Part shown: positions 5,882 to 53,269 of the stretch, one piece after another
How positions within the stretch are numbered: position 1 is the first letter of the stretch
Layout of the letters: every line of letters begins with the position of its first letter
Assembly (NCBI GenBank): GCA_903932685.1
Contig: CAIZGX010000057.1
Coordinates: 1-53,306 of the forward strand
Source: an uncultured Bacteroidota bacterium
GTDB lineage: Bacteria; Bacteroidota; Bacteroidia; Flavobacteriales_D; Sanyastnellaceae
DNA length: 53,306 nt
Reading direction: 5' to 3'
Translations under genes and position numbers: made by a program
Notes under the pieces: generated by a model
Database searches by the model: none
What the model saw: the letters and a program-made list of their open reading frames with translations, nothing else
What the model was told of the DNA's origin: nothing

Positions 5882-6130
5882 GAACTACGTAATTGGAAAA
5901 TCGAAGATTTTATTCCTACTTCGTAATTCCTATTTCATAATTCCTACTGCGTAATTGGAACTACGTTGTTGGAACTGTGTTGTGAGAACTATGTTGTTTG
6001 AACTGCGTTGTTCCTACTTCGTAATTGGAACTACGTTGTCAAACCCTCGTCCGAAGGACCCTCGCGATGCAATCGCCCTCGCAACGCTTGTTGCCTTCGC
6101 GATGCAATCGCCTTCGCAACGACATTGTTG
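5881..6130. repeat. Linker-hairpin array 2 (three linker types in series)
   Basis: This is the richest array, about 250 bases and some 18 modules, starting at the stop of the preceding gene. The first part has 9-base hairpins with 5-base linkers (14-bp period): TAC-TTC-GTA, TAT-TTC-ATA and TAC-TGC-GTA with ATTCC or ATTGG, then AAC-TAC-GTT, AAC-TGT-GTT, AAC-TAT-GTT and AAC-TGC-GTT with GTTGG, GTGAG or GTTTG. The second part (6049-6130) has larger hairpins with CCTC or CTTC linkers: GTCC-GAA-GGAC, GCGAT-GCA-ATCGC (twice), GCAAC-GCTT-GTTGC, and a last weaker CAAC/GTTG stem. Stems vary on both arms together. Confidence 0.88.
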
Positions 6131-6198: not shown

Positions 6199-7065
6199 AT
6201 GGAACAAAACCTAATTAAATCAGAAATAGAATCACGAATATTTACCATACGTGGGAGGCAAGTGATGCTCGATAGTGATTTGGCGAATTTTTATGGTTCT
6301 GAAACGAAGTATATTAACAGAGCGGTCAGCAGAAATATAGATCGGTTTCCACCAGATTTCGCATTTCAACTGTCGCTAGATGAGTTTGAAAGTTTGAGGT
6401 GCCAATTTGGAACCTCAAAGAATTCAAGAGGAGGGCGCCGTTATATGCCATTCGTATTCACTGAGCAAGGCGTGTCTATGCTCTCTGCTGTTTTGAACAC
6501 AAATATTGCAATCAAAATCAGCATTAAAATTATTCGGGCATTTGTCGACCTCTGCAAATCAAATGCAGATATAAATCTTTTAAATAGTAGGATTGACCGT
6601 CTTGAGGCGAAGCAGGTTATATCAGAATCAAAACTGAATAAAGTTCTAAATGCCCTTGAAGGAAATAATTCACCAAGCAGTGGCATATTCTTCGACGGAC
6701 AAATTTTTGACGCATATGTCTTTTCAAGCGAACTTATTTCCAGATCAAAAAAATCAATTGTGCTTATCGATAATTTTATCGATGAAAACACATTGTTGCA
6801 ACTTTCGAAAAGAAGTCAAAAGGTAAATTGCATTATATACACAGAAAGAATATCAGAGCAATTAAAACTTGATCTTGAAAAGCATAACTCGCAATATCCT
6901 CCAATTGAAATTCGAATTTTAAAAAGTTCACACGACAGATTTTTAATTCTTGATGAGAAAGAACTTTATCATATTGGGGCTTCATTGAAAGATTTAGGAA
7001 AGCGATGGTTTGCTTTTTCGAGAATGGATGGGCTTGTTAAAGAAATTCTTATTCACCTTCGGTGA
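6199..7065 (+). CDS. ORF6N-domain protein with a C-terminal phospholipase-D-like domain
   Basis: This 288-residue protein opens with an ORF6N (KilA-N-related, phage antirepressor-type) DNA-binding domain at about residues 9-105: IFTIRGRQVMLDSDLA, NRFPPDF-like NIDRFPPDFAF, and FTEQGVSMLSAVL. A short helical linker (about 120-150, SRIDRLEAKQ) follows. Then comes a C-terminal domain of about 125 residues with SIVLIDNFID and HDRFLILD, which looks like a degenerate phospholipase-D-fold (HxRxxxxD instead of HxKxxxxD), probably without nuclease activity. Such proteins are common in Bacteroidota accessory regions; their role is not established. The gene is flanked by hairpin arrays on both sides, and the downstream array begins inside its last codons. 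Confidence 0.82.
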   Translation: MEQNLIKSEIESRIFTIRGRQVMLDSDLANFYGSETKYINRAVSRNIDRFPPDFAFQLSLDEFESLRCQFGTSKNSRGGRRYMPFVFTEQGVSMLSAVLNTNIAIKISIKIIRAFVDLCKSNADINLLNSRIDRLEAKQVISESKLNKVLNALEGNNSPSSGIFFDGQIFDAYVFSSELISRSKKSIVLIDNFIDENTLLQLSKRSQKVNCIIYTERISEQLKLDLEKHNSQYPPIEIRILKSSHDRFLILDEKELYHIGASLKDLGKRWFAFSRMDGLVKEILIHLR

Positions 7066-7175
7066 TCAATTCTTCGAATCAATCTTTCAGATCAATCCTG
7101 CGGATCAAACCTTCGGTGAAATCGGAACGATTGATCACGTAGTAATTGATTGCAACGCAATTGATCATCGAAGAT
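7054..7175. repeat. Linker-hairpin array 3 (ATCAAT / ATTGAT linkers)
   Basis: The first hairpin, CACC-TTC-GGTG (7054-7064), includes the TG of the ORF6N stop codon. Modules with ATCAAT linkers follow: TC-TTC-GA, CT-TTC-AG, CC-TGC-GG and ACC-TTC-GGT. The linker then appears inverted as ATTGAT between CG-GAA-CG (7123-7129), AC-GTA-GT, TGC-AAC-GCA (7151-7159) and ATC-GAA-GAT (7167-7175). The inversion midway makes the whole array roughly palindromic. The rest of the gap to 7405 is AT-rich, with one perfect palindrome at 7295-7314. Confidence 0.82.
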
Positions 7176-9099: not shown

Positions 9100-9375
9100 A
9101 ACTTCGTTATTGGAAAATCGGAGATTTTATTCCTACTGCGTAATTGGAAATCCTTCGGATTTATTCCTACTGCGTAATTGGAAAACCTTCGGTTTTATTA
9201 CTACTGCGTAATTGGAAAACCTTCGGTTTTATTACTACTGCGTAATTGGAAAACCTTCGGTTTTATGCCTACTACGTAATGGGAAAACCTTCGGTTTTAT
9301 GCCTACTACGTAATTGGAACTACGTTGTCAAACCCTCGTCCGAAGGACCCTCGCGATGAAATCGCCCTCGCAAAG
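9100..9375. repeat. Linker-hairpin array 4 (34-bp higher-order period)
   Basis: After AAC-TTC-GTT (9100-9108) the array alternates long and short hairpins with 5-base linkers, giving a 34-bp higher-order unit (15+5+9+5). Long hairpins are AAAATC-GGA-GATTTT (9114-9128), AAATCC-TTC-GGATTT (9148-9162) and AAAACC-TTC-GGTTTT (9182, 9216, 9250 and 9284). Short ones are TAC-TGC-GTA and TAC-TAC-GTA. From 9338 it switches to CCTC linkers with GTCC-GAA-GGAC and GCGAT-GAA-ATCGC, nearly the same as in array 2. The remaining 140 bases to the toxin gene hold a TTATGCGCATAA palindrome (9415-9426) and the toxin promoter. Confidence 0.88.
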
Positions 9376-9865: not shown

Positions 9866-10792
9866 ATGGAAGCAAAACACGAGTACTTTCCGCAAACAAG
9901 ACCTCATCCGGGTGAAACTTTAAACGAGAAGTTAGAAGAGATGAAAATGGGTCCAAAAGAGTTTGCACTTAGAACAGGGAAGCCAGAGAAAACCATTATC
10001 GCAGTAATGAATGGTAAGAGTGCCATTACTCCAGATATGGCTGTGCAGTTTGAACAAGTGACACTGATTCCAGCTAACTTCTGGATGAACCATCAGCGCG
10101 GATACGATGAGTTCATCGCACGAGTGAAACGCAAAAAGGCCATAAAAGCGGCAATACCTTGGGCAAAGAAATTTCCCCTTGCTGAAATGATGCGGAAGGG
10201 CTGGATTCCTTCAACAACAAAAATGGAAGAAAAGACAACAGAGCTATTGAACTTTTTTAGTTTCTCGAATCACACCGGTTGGGAAGATTATTATTTCAAA
10301 CAACAGCTCAAGGTTGCCTTCCGAATTTCATTGAAGAAAACGGTTGATCCATATGCTATTTCAGCATGGCTGCGAAAGGGAGAACTGCAGGCAAAGGAGC
10401 TTCAGGCGGAGCCATTTTCTTTAATCGATTTCAAAGCAGCATTACCCGAATTGCAGCAAATCATGCGGAAACAACGAAAGGACTCTTTCAGTCAGGTGCA
10501 AAAGATTTGCCTTTCCATCGGAGTGAAAGTGGTCATTACCCCAGGAATAAATAAAGTCCCCATTAGCGGTTCAACGCGCTGGATAAAGGATACACCGCTC
10601 ATTCAATTGAGCGATAAATTCAAAAATACAGATGCCTTTTGGTTCACCTTTTTTCATGAGGTCGGACACATATTGCTTCACGGTAAAAAAGATATTTTCC
10701 TAGAAAAAGTAGAGTATTCAGATAAGCAGCAAAACCAAGAGGAGGAAGCCGATGCTTTTGCTTGGAACTTCGTTGTTGGAACTTCGTTGTGA
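9866..10792 (+). CDS. HigA-type XRE regulator fused to ImmA/IrrE metallopeptidase, 3' end truncated by repeats
   Basis: Residues 10-75 form an XRE/HigA helix-turn-helix domain (RPHPGETLNEKLEEM, EKTIIAVMNGKSAITPDMA). Residues 200-308 carry an ImmA/IrrE (COG2856-type) zinc peptidase domain with FHEVGHILLH, a proper HExxH motif, and a distal EEEADAFA helix. Proteins of this architecture normally continue for about 40-60 residues after ADxFA. Here the sequence changes to WNFVVGTSL and stops, and those last residues are encoded by two AAC-TTC-GTT repeat units of array 5. It should pair with the toxin just upstream, as antitoxin and self-repressor. Whether the shortened peptidase is active is uncertain. 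The HExxH and the third acidic ligand region are still present. Confidence 0.82.
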   Translation: MEAKHEYFPQTRPHPGETLNEKLEEMKMGPKEFALRTGKPEKTIIAVMNGKSAITPDMAVQFEQVTLIPANFWMNHQRGYDEFIARVKRKKAIKAAIPWAKKFPLAEMMRKGWIPSTTKMEEKTTELLNFFSFSNHTGWEDYYFKQQLKVAFRISLKKTVDPYAISAWLRKGELQAKELQAEPFSLIDFKAALPELQQIMRKQRKDSFSQVQKICLSIGVKVVITPGINKVPISGSTRWIKDTPLIQLSDKFKNTDAFWFTFFHEVGHILLHGKKDIFLEKVEYSDKQQNQEEEADAFAWNFVVGTSL

Positions 10793-10946
10793 GAACTACG
10801 TTGTTATAACTTCGTTGTTGGAACTATGTTGCTGGAACTACGTTGTTGGAACTAAGTTGTGAGAACTGCGTTGTTATAGTCGTCGAAGACATTCGCGAAG
10901 CATTCGCACGAAGTGCATTCGTCCATAGGACATTCGCCCTTCGGGC
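10766..10946. repeat. Linker-hairpin array 5, filling the space between two convergent stops
   Basis: Eight 14-bp units of AAC-nnn-GTT plus GTTGG, GTGAG, GTTAT or GCTGG run from 10766; the first two are inside the XRE/IrrE reading frame. From 10882 the array changes to ATTC linkers: GTC-GAA-GAC, GC-GAA-GC, GCAC-GAA-GTGC, GTCC-ATA-GGAC and GCCC-TTC-GGGC (10936-10946). It stops one base before the stop codon of the convergent SDR gene (10948). Loops are mostly GAA or TTC, with one ATA; stems are perfect but all different. Confidence 0.88.
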
Positions 10947-48973: not shown

Positions 48974-51900
48974 TTATTGAATTCCTAATTCTTTTTTCGC
49001 CTCAGGTACTGTAATTCTCTTTCCATTTTGGTATGCCGTAATAAATGCATCTGGAATTCCATTGGACCGAACAAAATCACGTTGCTTAACGACTTCAGCT
49101 ATTGTTTGGAATTTTCCACTTGTATAGCGAACTTGTCCATTAGCAAGTTTTTCTACATGCAAATCAGAATAGGTGTTAAGAACGGGATTTCTTGAAGGCT
49201 TGGCGTAAACACCAACTTGCACCGTAAAGAAAACACCTTGGGTTTTTTCAATCAGATTAGCAGGAACCGCTAATGGATCTGAGTAATAGGTTAAATCTGC
49301 TGCTGGCGCAGTTGCAGTATTCGCTGGCGGTGTAGCATCAACATTGTTAGATGCGCGCTCTGTAGCGGTCATGAGTTCACTGTAACGAACACGCTCGCGA
49401 TTTTTGTACGCTACAATGAATGCGTCGGTATATCCCATTAGACGAATTTCATTGCGCGCTTGAATGGCCTCAGTATAAGAGACGAAAAATCCGGTACTGT
49501 ATCGAATGAAACCATTCGTTTGTCGCTCGGCATAAACAGGAGCGAATTGACTGAACGTATTGTTAGCAACAGGTATTCGGAAGGCACCAACTTGAATGGT
49601 GTAGAAAGATCCTTCAGGCAGAGGCAAGCCAATTGGAATAGGCGTCGCGTCGCTATAGGCCGAACTGGCTTGCTTTTGATAAAGGGTTTGTTGTATGATC
49701 GCAGGAATACTTGTGAATGAACTAACGTTGTTAGAACTTGCGTTGTTAGAACTTGCGTTGTTTGAACTTGCGGTGTTGGAACTGGCGTTGTTTGAACTAA
49801 CGTTGTTAGAACTGGCGTTGTTGGAACTAACGTTGTTTGAACTTGCGTTGTTTGAACTTGCGTTGTTAGAACTTGCGTTGTTTGAACTGGCGTTGTTGGA
49901 ACTTGCGTTGTTAGAACTTGCGTTGTTAGAACTTGCGTTGTTAGAACTAACGTTGTTGGCCGATGGAGTAGTTTTTTCAACCAAGAATTGTAATTCGTTT
50001 TTTGCATTTCGTTCCAAAGCAAATGCACGTGCATTTTTTGCATAACGCTCAAAGAAATCGGTTTCTGTTTTAGCCGCTGCTCGAAGTGCGCTTGCCTCTT
50101 TCATATAGGCCACTGCAGTATCGTATGCCTTCTTGTCGCTTAATGTCGCAATACTTGAAGATGCGCTTGTGTTCTTTTTCCAAGCCGATTGAAGATCGAT
50201 AAGTGAATTCGAATTGTGCTCAGCAATGAGCGTCGCATTCTTATCCTCTTCTTGCATTTTTTGAAACGTCAATTGATTTCTTTGTTTAGTCAAATCGGCA
50301 ACTATTTCAGCGGAAGTTTCTTCTTTTATACGTCGATTGATAGCTTCAATTTCAGTGTATATGTTTTCTATTTCTGCTTGATTTGAAATTTCAATGTTCG
50401 CACCAGTCAATTCTGCGAATATTTTTTCTTCCCGGTAATTCGTTTGTCCAGGACTATTGATAATAGCAGTTTCTGCCGCAGTGAATGTTTTTGAACTGTC
50501 GTTGTTAGAACTGTCGTTGTTAGAACTTGCGTTGTTAGAACGAGTGTTGTTAGAACTAGCGTTGTTAGAACTGTCGTTGTTAGAACTTGCGTTGTTAGAA
50601 CTTGCGTTGTTAGAACTTGCGTTGTTAGAACTTGCGTTGTTAGAACTAGCGTTATTGGAACTAGCGTTGTTGGAACTGACGTTGTTGGAACTGACGTTGT
50701 TTGAACTAGCGTTGTTTGAACTGACGTTGTTTGAACTGACGTTGTTTGAACTAGCGTTGTTTGAACTGTCGTTGTTAGAACTAGCGTTGTTAGAAATAGC
50801 GTTGTTTGAACTATCGTTGTTGGAAGTTGGATTTTCGTATTGGGAATTTTCTAATGCGGCAGATACACGGTTTTTCGAATCGGCAATTTCAATTTTCAGC
50901 GACTCAACATTTACAGTGTTGGTTAAGTTTTTGAATTCAGGCTTTACTTCAGGCTGTTTTTCACTCTCTAAATCTTGAAGGAGTTTCATTAAAACAATGG
51001 ACTCTTGAAGTCCTAATTCACGAACGCGCAAGTTTTCTTTTTCTATTTCAATTTCTTCTTGAATCGAAGTGTATTCAACCTCAATTGCATTTAATTCACT
51101 ACCTAAACGTTCAATGTCTTTTTTCTTGTTAGTAGCCGACATTTGTTTGCCTACATCATTTGCTTTACTCTCTAAATCTGCTAGCTCCTTTGTTTTCGTG
51201 TTCAAACGAAGTTGGGTGTCGTCGCGCTTTGCTTTGTTGTCGTTAACCTCCGTTTTTGCAATTTCCGATTTCCAAGGAGCTTTCGCTTCAGTGGACAAAC
51301 CTTGCGCGCTTGCTGGGTTTTTGGCTACATAGTCATTGACAAGGTTTGCTGCTATTGGCGAATCTTTTTCCGCAAGAGATTCCTTGATTTGAGTGTTTGT
51401 TATTTGAACGCTGTTTAGTTTTTCGCGAAGTTCTTTTTCTCTTCCTTTAGAAATTTCATAGGCGGCTATGGCTGCAGCACTTTTGTCTTGCGTCGCAATC
51501 ATATTGTTTCTAGCTGCGACCAATTTCGCACTGTCCGCGATTGATTCAGGTTTCTCGAATCGAAAGGTTTGAAATTCTTCGTATGCCTCATCTGTTTCCG
51601 ATAAGGTTTGCTGAACATATTGAAGCAACGATTTTGAAGTTTGTTCAGCTAACAATATTTCACGCTGCAAAACCGCTATAGTTTTTTCTTGTGAGGAAAG
51701 TACCGTATCTATTTCAATGAGCTGTGTAACCGGAGCAATTTCAGTAGTGTTAGTTCCGGTTGAATTCGAATTGCTTGTATTGGACGCAATGGAATTGGCT
51801 TGGTCCGCAGTGGCATTCACGTCGAGTTGCGATTTGGCCAGAAGCATTTGACGCTGAAGATCTTCAACATTATCATTCAATGGATCGTTCCAATAATTCT

Positions 51901-53269
51901 TTACTTCAACTTTCTCGCGACCTTCTATTTTGGAGTAAACGATTTCCTGACGGAACACCCGAGATCCTTCAGATGGTGGAATTTTAACGAGTACTTCGTG
52001 CACTTGAGGACTTCCTGGAGGTTGAATCTTGTAGGTATAGTTGCCTGCTGTTGGAATGAAAAGTAAGTATTGTCCATTCAACTCACGGGCTTGAGTATCC
52101 ATGATTTTTCGATTCGTTAAATCTTCGAACACTTGAATCTTCGCCTCTGTTTGGTTCACATCTACTCGAGAAATGAATTCGCCTTTGAGGTAGGTGATAT
52201 TCATGGGTATTCCATTTACGAAAACACGATAGACAAAAAGTTTATCTGGAGAAGTTAAACGGCTACTTGCGAAATAGGCTGTTGTATTTAATGAGTCGGT
52301 GATGAAGAACAAATCGTCATCGGGAGTATTAATTGCGAAGTCCATATTTATCGCCGGACCGAAATCGTTCATGCTTGTATCCCATTCACAACGGAAAATA
52401 TCGTAGCCACCCATACTTCCATGTCCTTTTGAAGCAAAATAGAGTGTACTTCCATTGGGATGCATAAATGCGAAGTCTTCATCGAACTCAGTATTAACAG
52501 TGCTTTTCAATTTAACGGGTAAAGTGAAGGCGCCGTTCAAACGTGAGGTCATGTAAATGTCCTTTCCGGTTGTGTCATCTTTCCCTTTGCTTGAAAAGAA
52601 AATTTTCTTGCCATTGTTCGGAAGGAATAAGACATGCTCTTCCTTCGACTTCAAATCGAGCTTTGACAACAATTCATTTGGTGTGGCAATAATTTTCCCA
52701 ATCGAGGGGTCAATGTTCATGTAACGATAGAAGCTTGATTTTTCCGCTTCTGTTTTTTCAAGTACTTGAACATCCTTAATGCTATTCATAAGGTTCAATC
52801 CAGACTCTGCAGAAAGCTTTTGTGCTTTGCAATCAGATTTGGCGAGTTGTTTTTTTTCTGCCGAGGTTTGGAATTTCTCATATTCAACCAAGGCTTCTTT
52901 GAAATTGTAACTTAGGTGGTAAGCTCGCGCCAAGTAATAGTGAGTTTCAGGTTCGGTATAGCCTCGGCGAACCCCGTCTTTCATGAAGAAAATACAATTG
53001 TCGCGATCTGTCGTGGCATAAATGCCCGCCGCACCAAAACGAAAGGCATACAAGGGATTGCTTCCGTAGAGCGACACCAATTGCGAATACATGGCGTAGG
53101 CTTGCACGTAATTTCCTTCCTCAAAAAACACATTCGCTTCGGTGGCTAATGTTTTTTCGTCAATCGGCTTTTGGGCGTGAAGTGTCCCTAGGCAAATTGT
53201 TAAAATGAATATGGAAATTAGTTTTCTAATGGCCTTTATTTTTGTTGGAATTGTAAAAATACATCGCAA
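48974..53269 (-). CDS. Giant PorE-like envelope protein: TPR, PD40 propeller, CRD, Asn/Ser repeat tracts and two SPOR domains
   Basis: A 1431-residue protein, complete except that its promoter is cut by the window edge. A signal sequence (hydrophobic residues about 16-33, ending LHAQ) is followed by TPR-like helices (about 36-150), a PD40/WD40-like propeller (about 205-330: KIFFSSKGKDDTTGKDIYMTS, LYFASKGHGSMGGYDIFRCEWD), and a carboxypeptidase-regulatory-like beta domain (about 355-435). Long charged coiled-coil helices follow (about 450-800 and 930-1100). Two tracts of NASSN-type pentapeptides (about 816-925 and 1104-1183) interrupt them. Two SPOR-like domains (YTIQVGAF near 1217, FTVQVGVY near 1348) finish the protein; SPOR modules bind denuded peptidoglycan. 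The TPR-propeller-CRD order is that of T9SS PorE, in which an OmpA domain fills the peptidoglycan-binding role. Confidence 0.86.
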   Translation of the reverse strand: MRCIFTIPTKIKAIRKLISIFILTICLGTLHAQKPIDEKTLATEANVFFEEGNYVQAYAMYSQLVSLYGSNPLYAFRFGAAGIYATTDRDNCIFFMKDGVRRGYTEPETHYYLARAYHLSYNFKEALVEYEKFQTSAEKKQLAKSDCKAQKLSAESGLNLMNSIKDVQVLEKTEAEKSSFYRYMNIDPSIGKIIATPNELLSKLDLKSKEEHVLFLPNNGKKIFFSSKGKDDTTGKDIYMTSRLNGAFTLPVKLKSTVNTEFDEDFAFMHPNGSTLYFASKGHGSMGGYDIFRCEWDTSMNDFGPAINMDFAINTPDDDLFFITDSLNTTAYFASSRLTSPDKLFVYRVFVNGIPMNITYLKGEFISRVDVNQTEAKIQVFEDLTNRKIMDTQARELNGQYLLFIPTAGNYTYKIQPPGSPQVHEVLVKIPPSEGSRVFRQEIVYSKIEGREKVEVKNYWNDPLNDNVEDLQRQMLLAKSQLDVNATADQANSIASNTSNSNSTGTNTTEIAPVTQLIEIDTVLSSQEKTIAVLQREILLAEQTSKSLLQYVQQTLSETDEAYEEFQTFRFEKPESIADSAKLVAARNNMIATQDKSAAAIAAYEISKGREKELREKLNSVQITNTQIKESLAEKDSPIAANLVNDYVAKNPASAQGLSTEAKAPWKSEIAKTEVNDNKAKRDDTQLRLNTKTKELADLESKANDVGKQMSATNKKKDIERLGSELNAIEVEYTSIQEEIEIEKENLRVRELGLQESIVLMKLLQDLESEKQPEVKPEFKNLTNTVNVESLKIEIADSKNRVSAALENSQYENPTSNNDSSNNAISNNASSNNDSSNNASSNNVSSNNVSSNNASSNNVSSNNVSSNNASSNNASSNNASSNNASSNNASSNNASSNNDSSNNASSNNTRSNNASSNNDSSNNDSSKTFTAAETAIINSPGQTNYREEKIFAELTGANIEISNQAEIENIYTEIEAINRRIKEETSAEIVADLTKQRNQLTFQKMQEEDKNATLIAEHNSNSLIDLQSAWKKNTSASSSIATLSDKKAYDTAVAYMKEASALRAAAKTETDFFERYAKNARAFALERNAKNELQFLVEKTTPSANNVSSNNASSNNASSNNASSNNASSNNASSNNASSNNASSNNVSSNNASSNNVSSNNASSNTASSNNASSNNASSNNVSSFTSIPAIIQQTLYQKQASSAYSDATPIPIGLPLPEGSFYTIQVGAFRIPVANNTFSQFAPVYAERQTNGFIRYSTGFFVSYTEAIQARNEIRLMGYTDAFIVAYKNRERVRYSELMTATERASNNVDATPPANTATAPAADLTYYSDPLAVPANLIEKTQGVFFTVQVGVYAKPSRNPVLNTYSDLHVEKLANGQVRYTSGKFQTIAEVVKQRDFVRSNGIPDAFITAYQNGKRITVPEAKKELGIQ
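49720..49957 (-). repeat. In-frame 15-bp hairpin repeat, block 2
   Basis: About 16 units. On the plus strand each unit is AAC, a 4-base loop, GTT, then GTTAG, GTTGG or GTTTG. Loops include TTGC, TAAC and TGGC. On the coding strand the unit reads Asn-Ala/Val-Ser-Ser-Asn. Confidence 0.9.
50494..50820 (-). repeat. In-frame 15-bp hairpin repeat, block 1
   Basis: About 22 units of the same kind, with loops TTGC, TAGC, TGTC, TGAC, TATC and GAGT. The variable residue is Ala, Val or Asp, with one Thr-Arg unit and one Ala-Ile unit. The linker variants (GTTAG, GTTGG, GTTTG) are those of the intergenic 14-bp arrays. Confidence 0.9.

Follow-up and report, generated by a model that had tools for sequence, protein, structure and literature searches.

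The locus raises the question of how a tandem repeat that encodes part of a very large protein is related to a repeat of almost the same form that lies between genes. The window, that is the whole stretch of DNA analysed here, is contig C57 (53,306 nucleotides) of a genome (G000) assembled to 2.37 Mb in 84 contigs. Its SPOR gene (Table 1) encodes a protein with a PD40 match (PF07676, E 2e-5) as well as the SPOR domain; the start codon is uncertain, the mechanical start being a TTG at 53269. The initial annotation had described about 38 in-frame 15-bp units in two blocks of this gene, encoding a pentapeptide repeat with a variable residue that is mostly Ala, Val or Asp, together with a 14-bp intergenic form that has the same arms and linkers and a 3-base loop. 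Codon reading bears out the coding part of this description, giving 38 units in which the variable residue is Ala 24 times, Val 8 times, Asp 5 times and Thr once. On the sense strand the consensus of the coding unit is AAC-GNNA-GTT-CNAAC and the peptide is NNxSS. The 14-bp form was likewise recovered, as arrays called by Tandem Repeats Finder.

Table 1. Repeat arrays and associated coding features of the window, with the basis of each assignment.
Feature	Position	Strand	Basis
SPOR gene, ~1431 aa, PD40 and SPOR domains, contains both coding arrays	48974..53269	minus	ORF
SPOR domain, downstream of block 2	49412..49612	minus	PF05036, E 1.2e-6, residues 31-97 of window:48974-49702(-)
Coding array block 1, N-terminal side, 15-bp units	50493..50825	minus	Tandem Repeats Finder, 22.2 copies; 19 exact pattern matches
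Coding array block 2, before SPOR domain, 15-bp units, block 1 consensus	49726..49957	minus	Tandem Repeats Finder, 15.5 copies; 13 exact pattern matches
Intergenic 14-bp AAC-GTT array beside other mini-hairpin families	5955..6039	+	Tandem Repeats Finder; sequence; cluster
14-bp AAC-GTT array over 3′ end of ORF 9866-10792	10762..10875	+	Tandem Repeats Finder, 8.1 copies; sequence
Intergenic related mini-hairpins, arms AAAACC-TTC-GGTTTT and TAC-TGC-GTA, linkers ATTCC/ATTGG	9100..9348	+	15-hairpin cluster; sequence
TCAA-linker mini-hairpin array, different self-complementary arms	7053..7117	+	4 hairpins; sequence

A search of the own genome with the pattern GTTGTKDGAACN{3,4}GTT gave 88 matches, and the reversed control gave 2. 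The 32 matches that have a 4-base loop are all in the SPOR gene, and the 56 that have a 3-base loop are all outside it, so that the division of loop length by location, which had been proposed from the window, is complete in this genome. It is not strict across the genus. A two-unit 15-bp pattern, which demands TNNC loops, matched 170 times in nine genus genomes, 165 times in the SPOR gene and 5 times in intergenic arrays; 15-bp forms are thus rare outside genes, and not equally common there. The five intergenic matches are mixed with 14-bp units, and one of these arrays (L272) overlaps a mechanical 63-aa frame. Seven intergenic 4-base-loop units were found in the genus loci, all of them TNNC, only two of which were picked independently of the TNNC-demanding pattern. 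Their presence inside intergenic 14-bp arrays indicates that a rare 4-base variant exists outside the SPOR gene.

Samples of three genomes (551 kb of G000 and 400 kb each of G004 and G006, with ORFs of at least 100 aa called mechanically) gave 3-base loops in 60/61 units between genes and 4-base loops in 120/132 units in ORFs; the G000 sample was chosen partly around matches, and the loose linker pattern admits a few chance matches. A sample of G007 contained no AAC-GTT units in either location. The linkers GTTAG, GTTGG and GTTTG are common to the 14-bp and 15-bp forms, and in the samples GTGAG and GTGGG occur only between genes. The stop codon of ORF 9866-10792 (TGA) is supplied by the GTGAG linker of the array that covers its 3′ end. 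The intergenic AAC-GTT units are embedded in composite arrays, where neighbouring units differ from them in the arms, resemble them in the linkers (ATTGG, ATTCC) and match them in class of loop.

Both forms follow the genus. The N-terminal part of the SPOR-gene protein was matched in 40/40 genomes searched, including eight congeners, many of the others giving partial matches only. NNASS coding arrays were seen directly in G000 and six congeners, with differing copy numbers, and intergenic AAC-GTT units in G000 and seven congeners. The assemblies are fragmented MAGs in which arrays break contigs; in G003 two contigs end at the coding array from both sides, leaving only the array edges visible. 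Close relatives carry the same arms and linkers, not unrelated ones. Of the 9 genus genomes, 8 contain the unit, with 13 to 140 matches each; outside the genus it was found once or twice in 8/31 genomes, no more than the reversed control. Within the order, the two-unit 14-bp pattern is present in 7/399 genomes, all of this genus, G001 and G007 being without it. A second family, GTCGAAGACATTCGC, was found in 12/399 genomes, namely seven of the genus (own included) and five with single matches elsewhere. G007 is the most divergent congener (58% identity), and a pattern search of it returned no match to the AAC-GTT unit of either length. At the corresponding places, assigned by order along the protein and not by alignment, G007 has Asn/Ser/Thr-rich SSNNT stretches. 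These are coded without a stem, Ser4 being TCG in 7 of 10 units, and the peptide repeat may therefore predate the DNA form.

Codon choice within the arrays was counted in 227 units from seven genomes, G003 giving none because its contig ends. Asn is coded by AAC 428 times and by AAT 14 times; the array-free parts of these genes, in eight genomes, give 236:353. The first Ser is AGT in 221 cases and AGC in none (91:115 elsewhere in the same genes). For the second Ser, TCG is never used (0/226), whereas outside the arrays it is the commonest Ser codon (153/676); one TCG is present at the edge of the G003 array. The third positions of Ala and of the second Ser vary freely, except that GCG is rare (2/183). 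Comparison of these positions, where T and C are interchangeable, with those of the first Ser and Asn, where they are not, gave p values of 5e-43 and 1e-54, both of which are overstated as the units share ancestry and are not independent. Recent tandem copying also lowers silent variation. The silent sites are nearly frozen, which argues that the DNA is constrained and not the peptide alone. The first Asn codon belongs to the linker and not to the arm, yet it is frozen to the same degree; therefore stem pairing alone is insufficient to account for the constraint.

The same pattern of fixed and free positions is found in both forms of the unit. The AAC and GTT arms and the AAC of the linker are fixed, the middle of the loop is free, and one base of the linker varies among A, G and T. 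No counted unit, coding or intergenic, has C at the fourth linker position (0/139 in the genus loci, many of which were fetched with patterns that exclude C). Given the shared arms, linkers and variable positions, the missing linker base and the distribution across relatives, there is good support for a single family that comprises the coding and the intergenic repeats and whose two unit lengths are set by the reading frame.

Read on one strand, most loops outside genes are C(GNA)G and most of those within genes are C(GNNA)G, GNA being TNC on the other strand. TAC, TTC and TGC make up 45/55 of the 3-base loops of the AAC family in G000. Between genes, the samples of G000, G004 and G006 had 119, 23 and 96 C(GNA)G hairpins whose arms were 4 or longer, against 5, 2 and 2 in shuffled sequence; the G007 sample had 0 against 1. 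Intergenic C-G-closed hairpins with other loops were raised less in the same three samples (73, 25 and 48 against 19, 11 and 12). Within ORFs, C(GNA)G hairpins numbered 117, 81 and 76, and 41 in G007, against 46, 32, 41 and 30. Both outer arm positions are paired at 274/379 non-AAC intergenic sites, with 31 expected by permutation (maximum 52), and at 165/1024 sites in ORFs, with 82 expected (maximum 115). The AAC-GTT arms are 3 bp long and hardly vary in the SPOR arrays, so that pairing there is without covariation support. C(GNNA)G would be the stable counterpart of the C(GNA)G loop, and our literature search returned no paper on its stability. Two RNA tetraloops were also considered. GNRA was rejected as a selected feature, since Ala codons that end in a purine are less common in the arrays than outside them (41:142 against 386:364), and C(UUCG)G was set aside, as on the sequence it cannot form together with matched outer arms.

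The AAC-GTT repeat is one of several mini-hairpin families. Clusters of at least three mini-hairpins, counted for loops of 3 or 4 and with the SPOR arrays, numbered 43, 14 and 26 in the G000, G004 and G006 samples, where shuffles predict 0 to 0.7; G007 had none, and neither did 372 kb sampled across 20 genomes outside the genus. The linker differs by family, and the arms vary yet stay complementary. Further families lie at 976-1090 and 6040-6130 of the window, with fixed linkers (CATTCG and CCCTCG are among those of the families) and variable matching arms.

Hairpin spacing is a multiple of three in 112/112 cases in the SPOR arrays, 41/49 in other ORFs, 30/149 between genes and 2/47 in arrays that straddle ORF ends. 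Mechanical ORF calling partly helps this frame rule by favouring stop-free arrays, which lengthen ORFs, and conserved genes therefore carry more weight. In a phosphoglucomutase gene (L084:5868-7694, L202-L205), mini-hairpins spaced at 12 bp form an in-frame array between domains I and II; this insert is present in five genomes, each time different, and is absent in G007 and in the other-genus relatives compared. A cyclase-family enzyme (L162:18720-19649, L254-L262) has an in-frame (ASQD LPQD LSQN LETx) repeat insert of variable copy number in G000, G001, G003, G006 and G008, a single short unit in G004 and none in G005, in G007 or in the relatives compared from other genera. In the own genome the cyclase gene is broken within the array, its two parts lying at separate contig ends. 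Neither this wider frame rule nor the division of loops into GNA and GNNA classes was part of the initial annotation. Mini-hairpin arrays are also read as N-terminal extensions of the ORFs at L119, L128 and L174, which we take to be ArsR-like, RNA-methyltransferase-like and FabH-like, and the true starts of which may lie downstream of the arrays.

On balance, the SPOR arrays are probably an in-frame coding branch of the tandem mini-hairpin repeats of this genus. The basic unit consists of a short arm, a C-G-closed GNA loop, the matching arm and a family-specific linker, and intergenic arrays are often placed at the 3′ ends of genes and between convergent genes. Within genes, most unit lengths divide by three, being either 12 bp with a GNA loop or 15 bp; for the AAC-GTT family in the SPOR gene, the longer loop (GNNA in place of GNA) gives the 15 bp. 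Arrays may expand by slippage or templated copying, helped by hairpins formed in single strands, and the NNxSS stretch may be a flexible linker whose length is nearly neutral. The AAC-GTT family would have entered the SPOR gene and not left it. Spread from intergenic arrays into the gene is the more likely direction because AAC-GTT units occur in composite multi-family arrays and because sister families are found in unrelated genes; on account of the Asn/Ser-rich stretch of G007 the reverse may hold instead. The proposal that the elements spread into, or arose from, this gene under selection for frame is partly supported, in so far as there is one family in which frame decides loop length. We suggest, tentatively and with some doubt, that the repeats form a selfish or semi-selfish lineage-specific system in which the loop is the part that adjusts, with C(GNA)G where frame is irrelevant and C(GNNA)G where it is relevant; by a swap between two stable loop types, a single element would then serve as an intergenic and as a protein-coding repeat.

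Were the gene the source, the NNxSS repeat would have arisen in it by slippage, and copies would have escaped to intergenic places and lost a loop base to become 14 bp long. The SSNNT-type repeats of G007, which have no DNA form, could represent such a beginning, and the arms and linker of the family are a possible product of Asn-Asn-x-Ser-Ser codons. However, this origin does not sit well with the composite arrays, in which the intergenic AAC-GTT units share a loop class and similar linkers with units that have other arms, nor with the insertion of sister families in unrelated genes, and we consider it rather unlikely. A still less probable explanation is that the likeness of the two forms is convergent, a low-complexity peptide array having spread by slippage from one founder and undergone codon homogenisation, so that it merely resembles the intergenic family. 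Asn/Ser-rich linkers are common and tandem arrays homogenise, and such an array would need no special stability in DNA or sense RNA, which is what the fold test described below returned. Against this, the very units that leave T and C free at the third positions of the second Ser and Ala have them frozen at the first Ser and Asn, both forms are without C at the same position of the linker, and coding and intergenic forms are co-distributed across relatives. Slight as we judge the chances of convergence to be, those of a function in RNA are somewhat better, though still low. Here the hairpins would serve as terminators or protect mRNA at gene ends, and the SPOR copy would be a by-product or have an antisense role.

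The position of the arrays is in keeping with such a function. Of 53 arrays, 23 lie between convergent, 24 between tandem and 6 between divergent genes, against 71, 293 and 134 of 498 intergenic regions, convergent regions making up 18% of intergenic length. The distance from array to stop codon is within 30 bases in 30/70 cases (a raw count, without a null), and in intergenic arrays the T-type loop is on the strand of the nearest-ending gene by 137 to 64. In the SPOR arrays it is the G-type loop that is on the sense strand, the reverse of what most intergenic arrays show, and this orientation counts against a function in RNA and also against the coding-branch reading. Two further points against a function in RNA are that GNRA-type loops, which are the kind stable in RNA, occur less often than expected from codon usage, and that folding of the sense RNA is not enhanced. 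In the fold test, which used standard energy parameters and 60 synonymous recodings per block on both strands, the coding arrays were no more stable than the recodings as DNA or as sense RNA, and the G006 arrays were clearly less stable in DNA, which likewise speaks against the coding-branch reading. Antisense RNA, which carries the T-type loop, fell below the recoding mean in 6/6 SPOR blocks and below all 60 recodings in 3/6 (win_b1, G006_b1 and G004_b0); this excess is possibly due to codon composition only. A search for PF01797 (Y1_Tnp), the family of the RAYT transposases that go with REP and REPIN elements, gave no match in G002, G003 (96% complete, with many arrays), G005, G007 or G008, and matches in G000, G001, G004 and G006.

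The closest known kind of element to the mini-hairpin repeats is the Rickettsia palindromic element (RPE). RPEs are about 150 bp long (PMC10969869), and counterparts are reported in Wolbachia and Methanocaldococcus. Such palindromes also occur in frame within unrelated genes that are presumed to be functional (PMC10969869, PMC3733652, PMC2996958), as do the repeats here in the genes for phosphoglucomutase and the cyclase. The repeats of this genus differ in being tandem mini-hairpins of 12-15 bp with fixed linkers, one loop class and a loop-length switch, and with arms that in the other families are variable and matching. Rickettsia and a few other microbes are the best-known carriers of in-frame palindromic repeats, and our literature search, mostly without subscription papers, named no such arrays in Flavobacteriales, Bacteroidetes or bacterial genomes. 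A single genus with several mini-hairpin families, a clear frame rule and insertion differences between close relatives, and with one family in two versions that are one loop base apart, offers a direct test, through comparison of relatives, of how protein sequence can arise from short repeats.

Three other systems share single features with these arrays. The PARCEL element is described as a 25-residue amphipathic repeat, tandem in ORFs, with dyad symmetry in its DNA (PMC2996958). The repeat here is a polar NNxSS of 5 residues, and the PARCEL passages of that source mention no intergenic form of another length (PMC2996958). GNA-loop DNA minihairpins are described as unusually stable (Yoshizawa et al. 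1997, as cited in PMC6479982), and the intergenic units follow the same GNA loop rule, closed by C-G; those minihairpins are an in vitro biophysical motif and not a genomic repeat family. REPs are described as lying downstream of genes and between convergent genes, with some supplying stop codons and some inside ORFs (PMC3733652), and REPINs are the subject of PMC3116915. The arrays here are likewise mainly downstream of genes and depleted between divergent genes; they differ in that the hairpins, each of some 9 bp, follow one another in long tandem series. CGTC repeats have been reported in Bacteroidetes (PMC3733652), and CGTC occurs in some of the mini-hairpin units of this genus.
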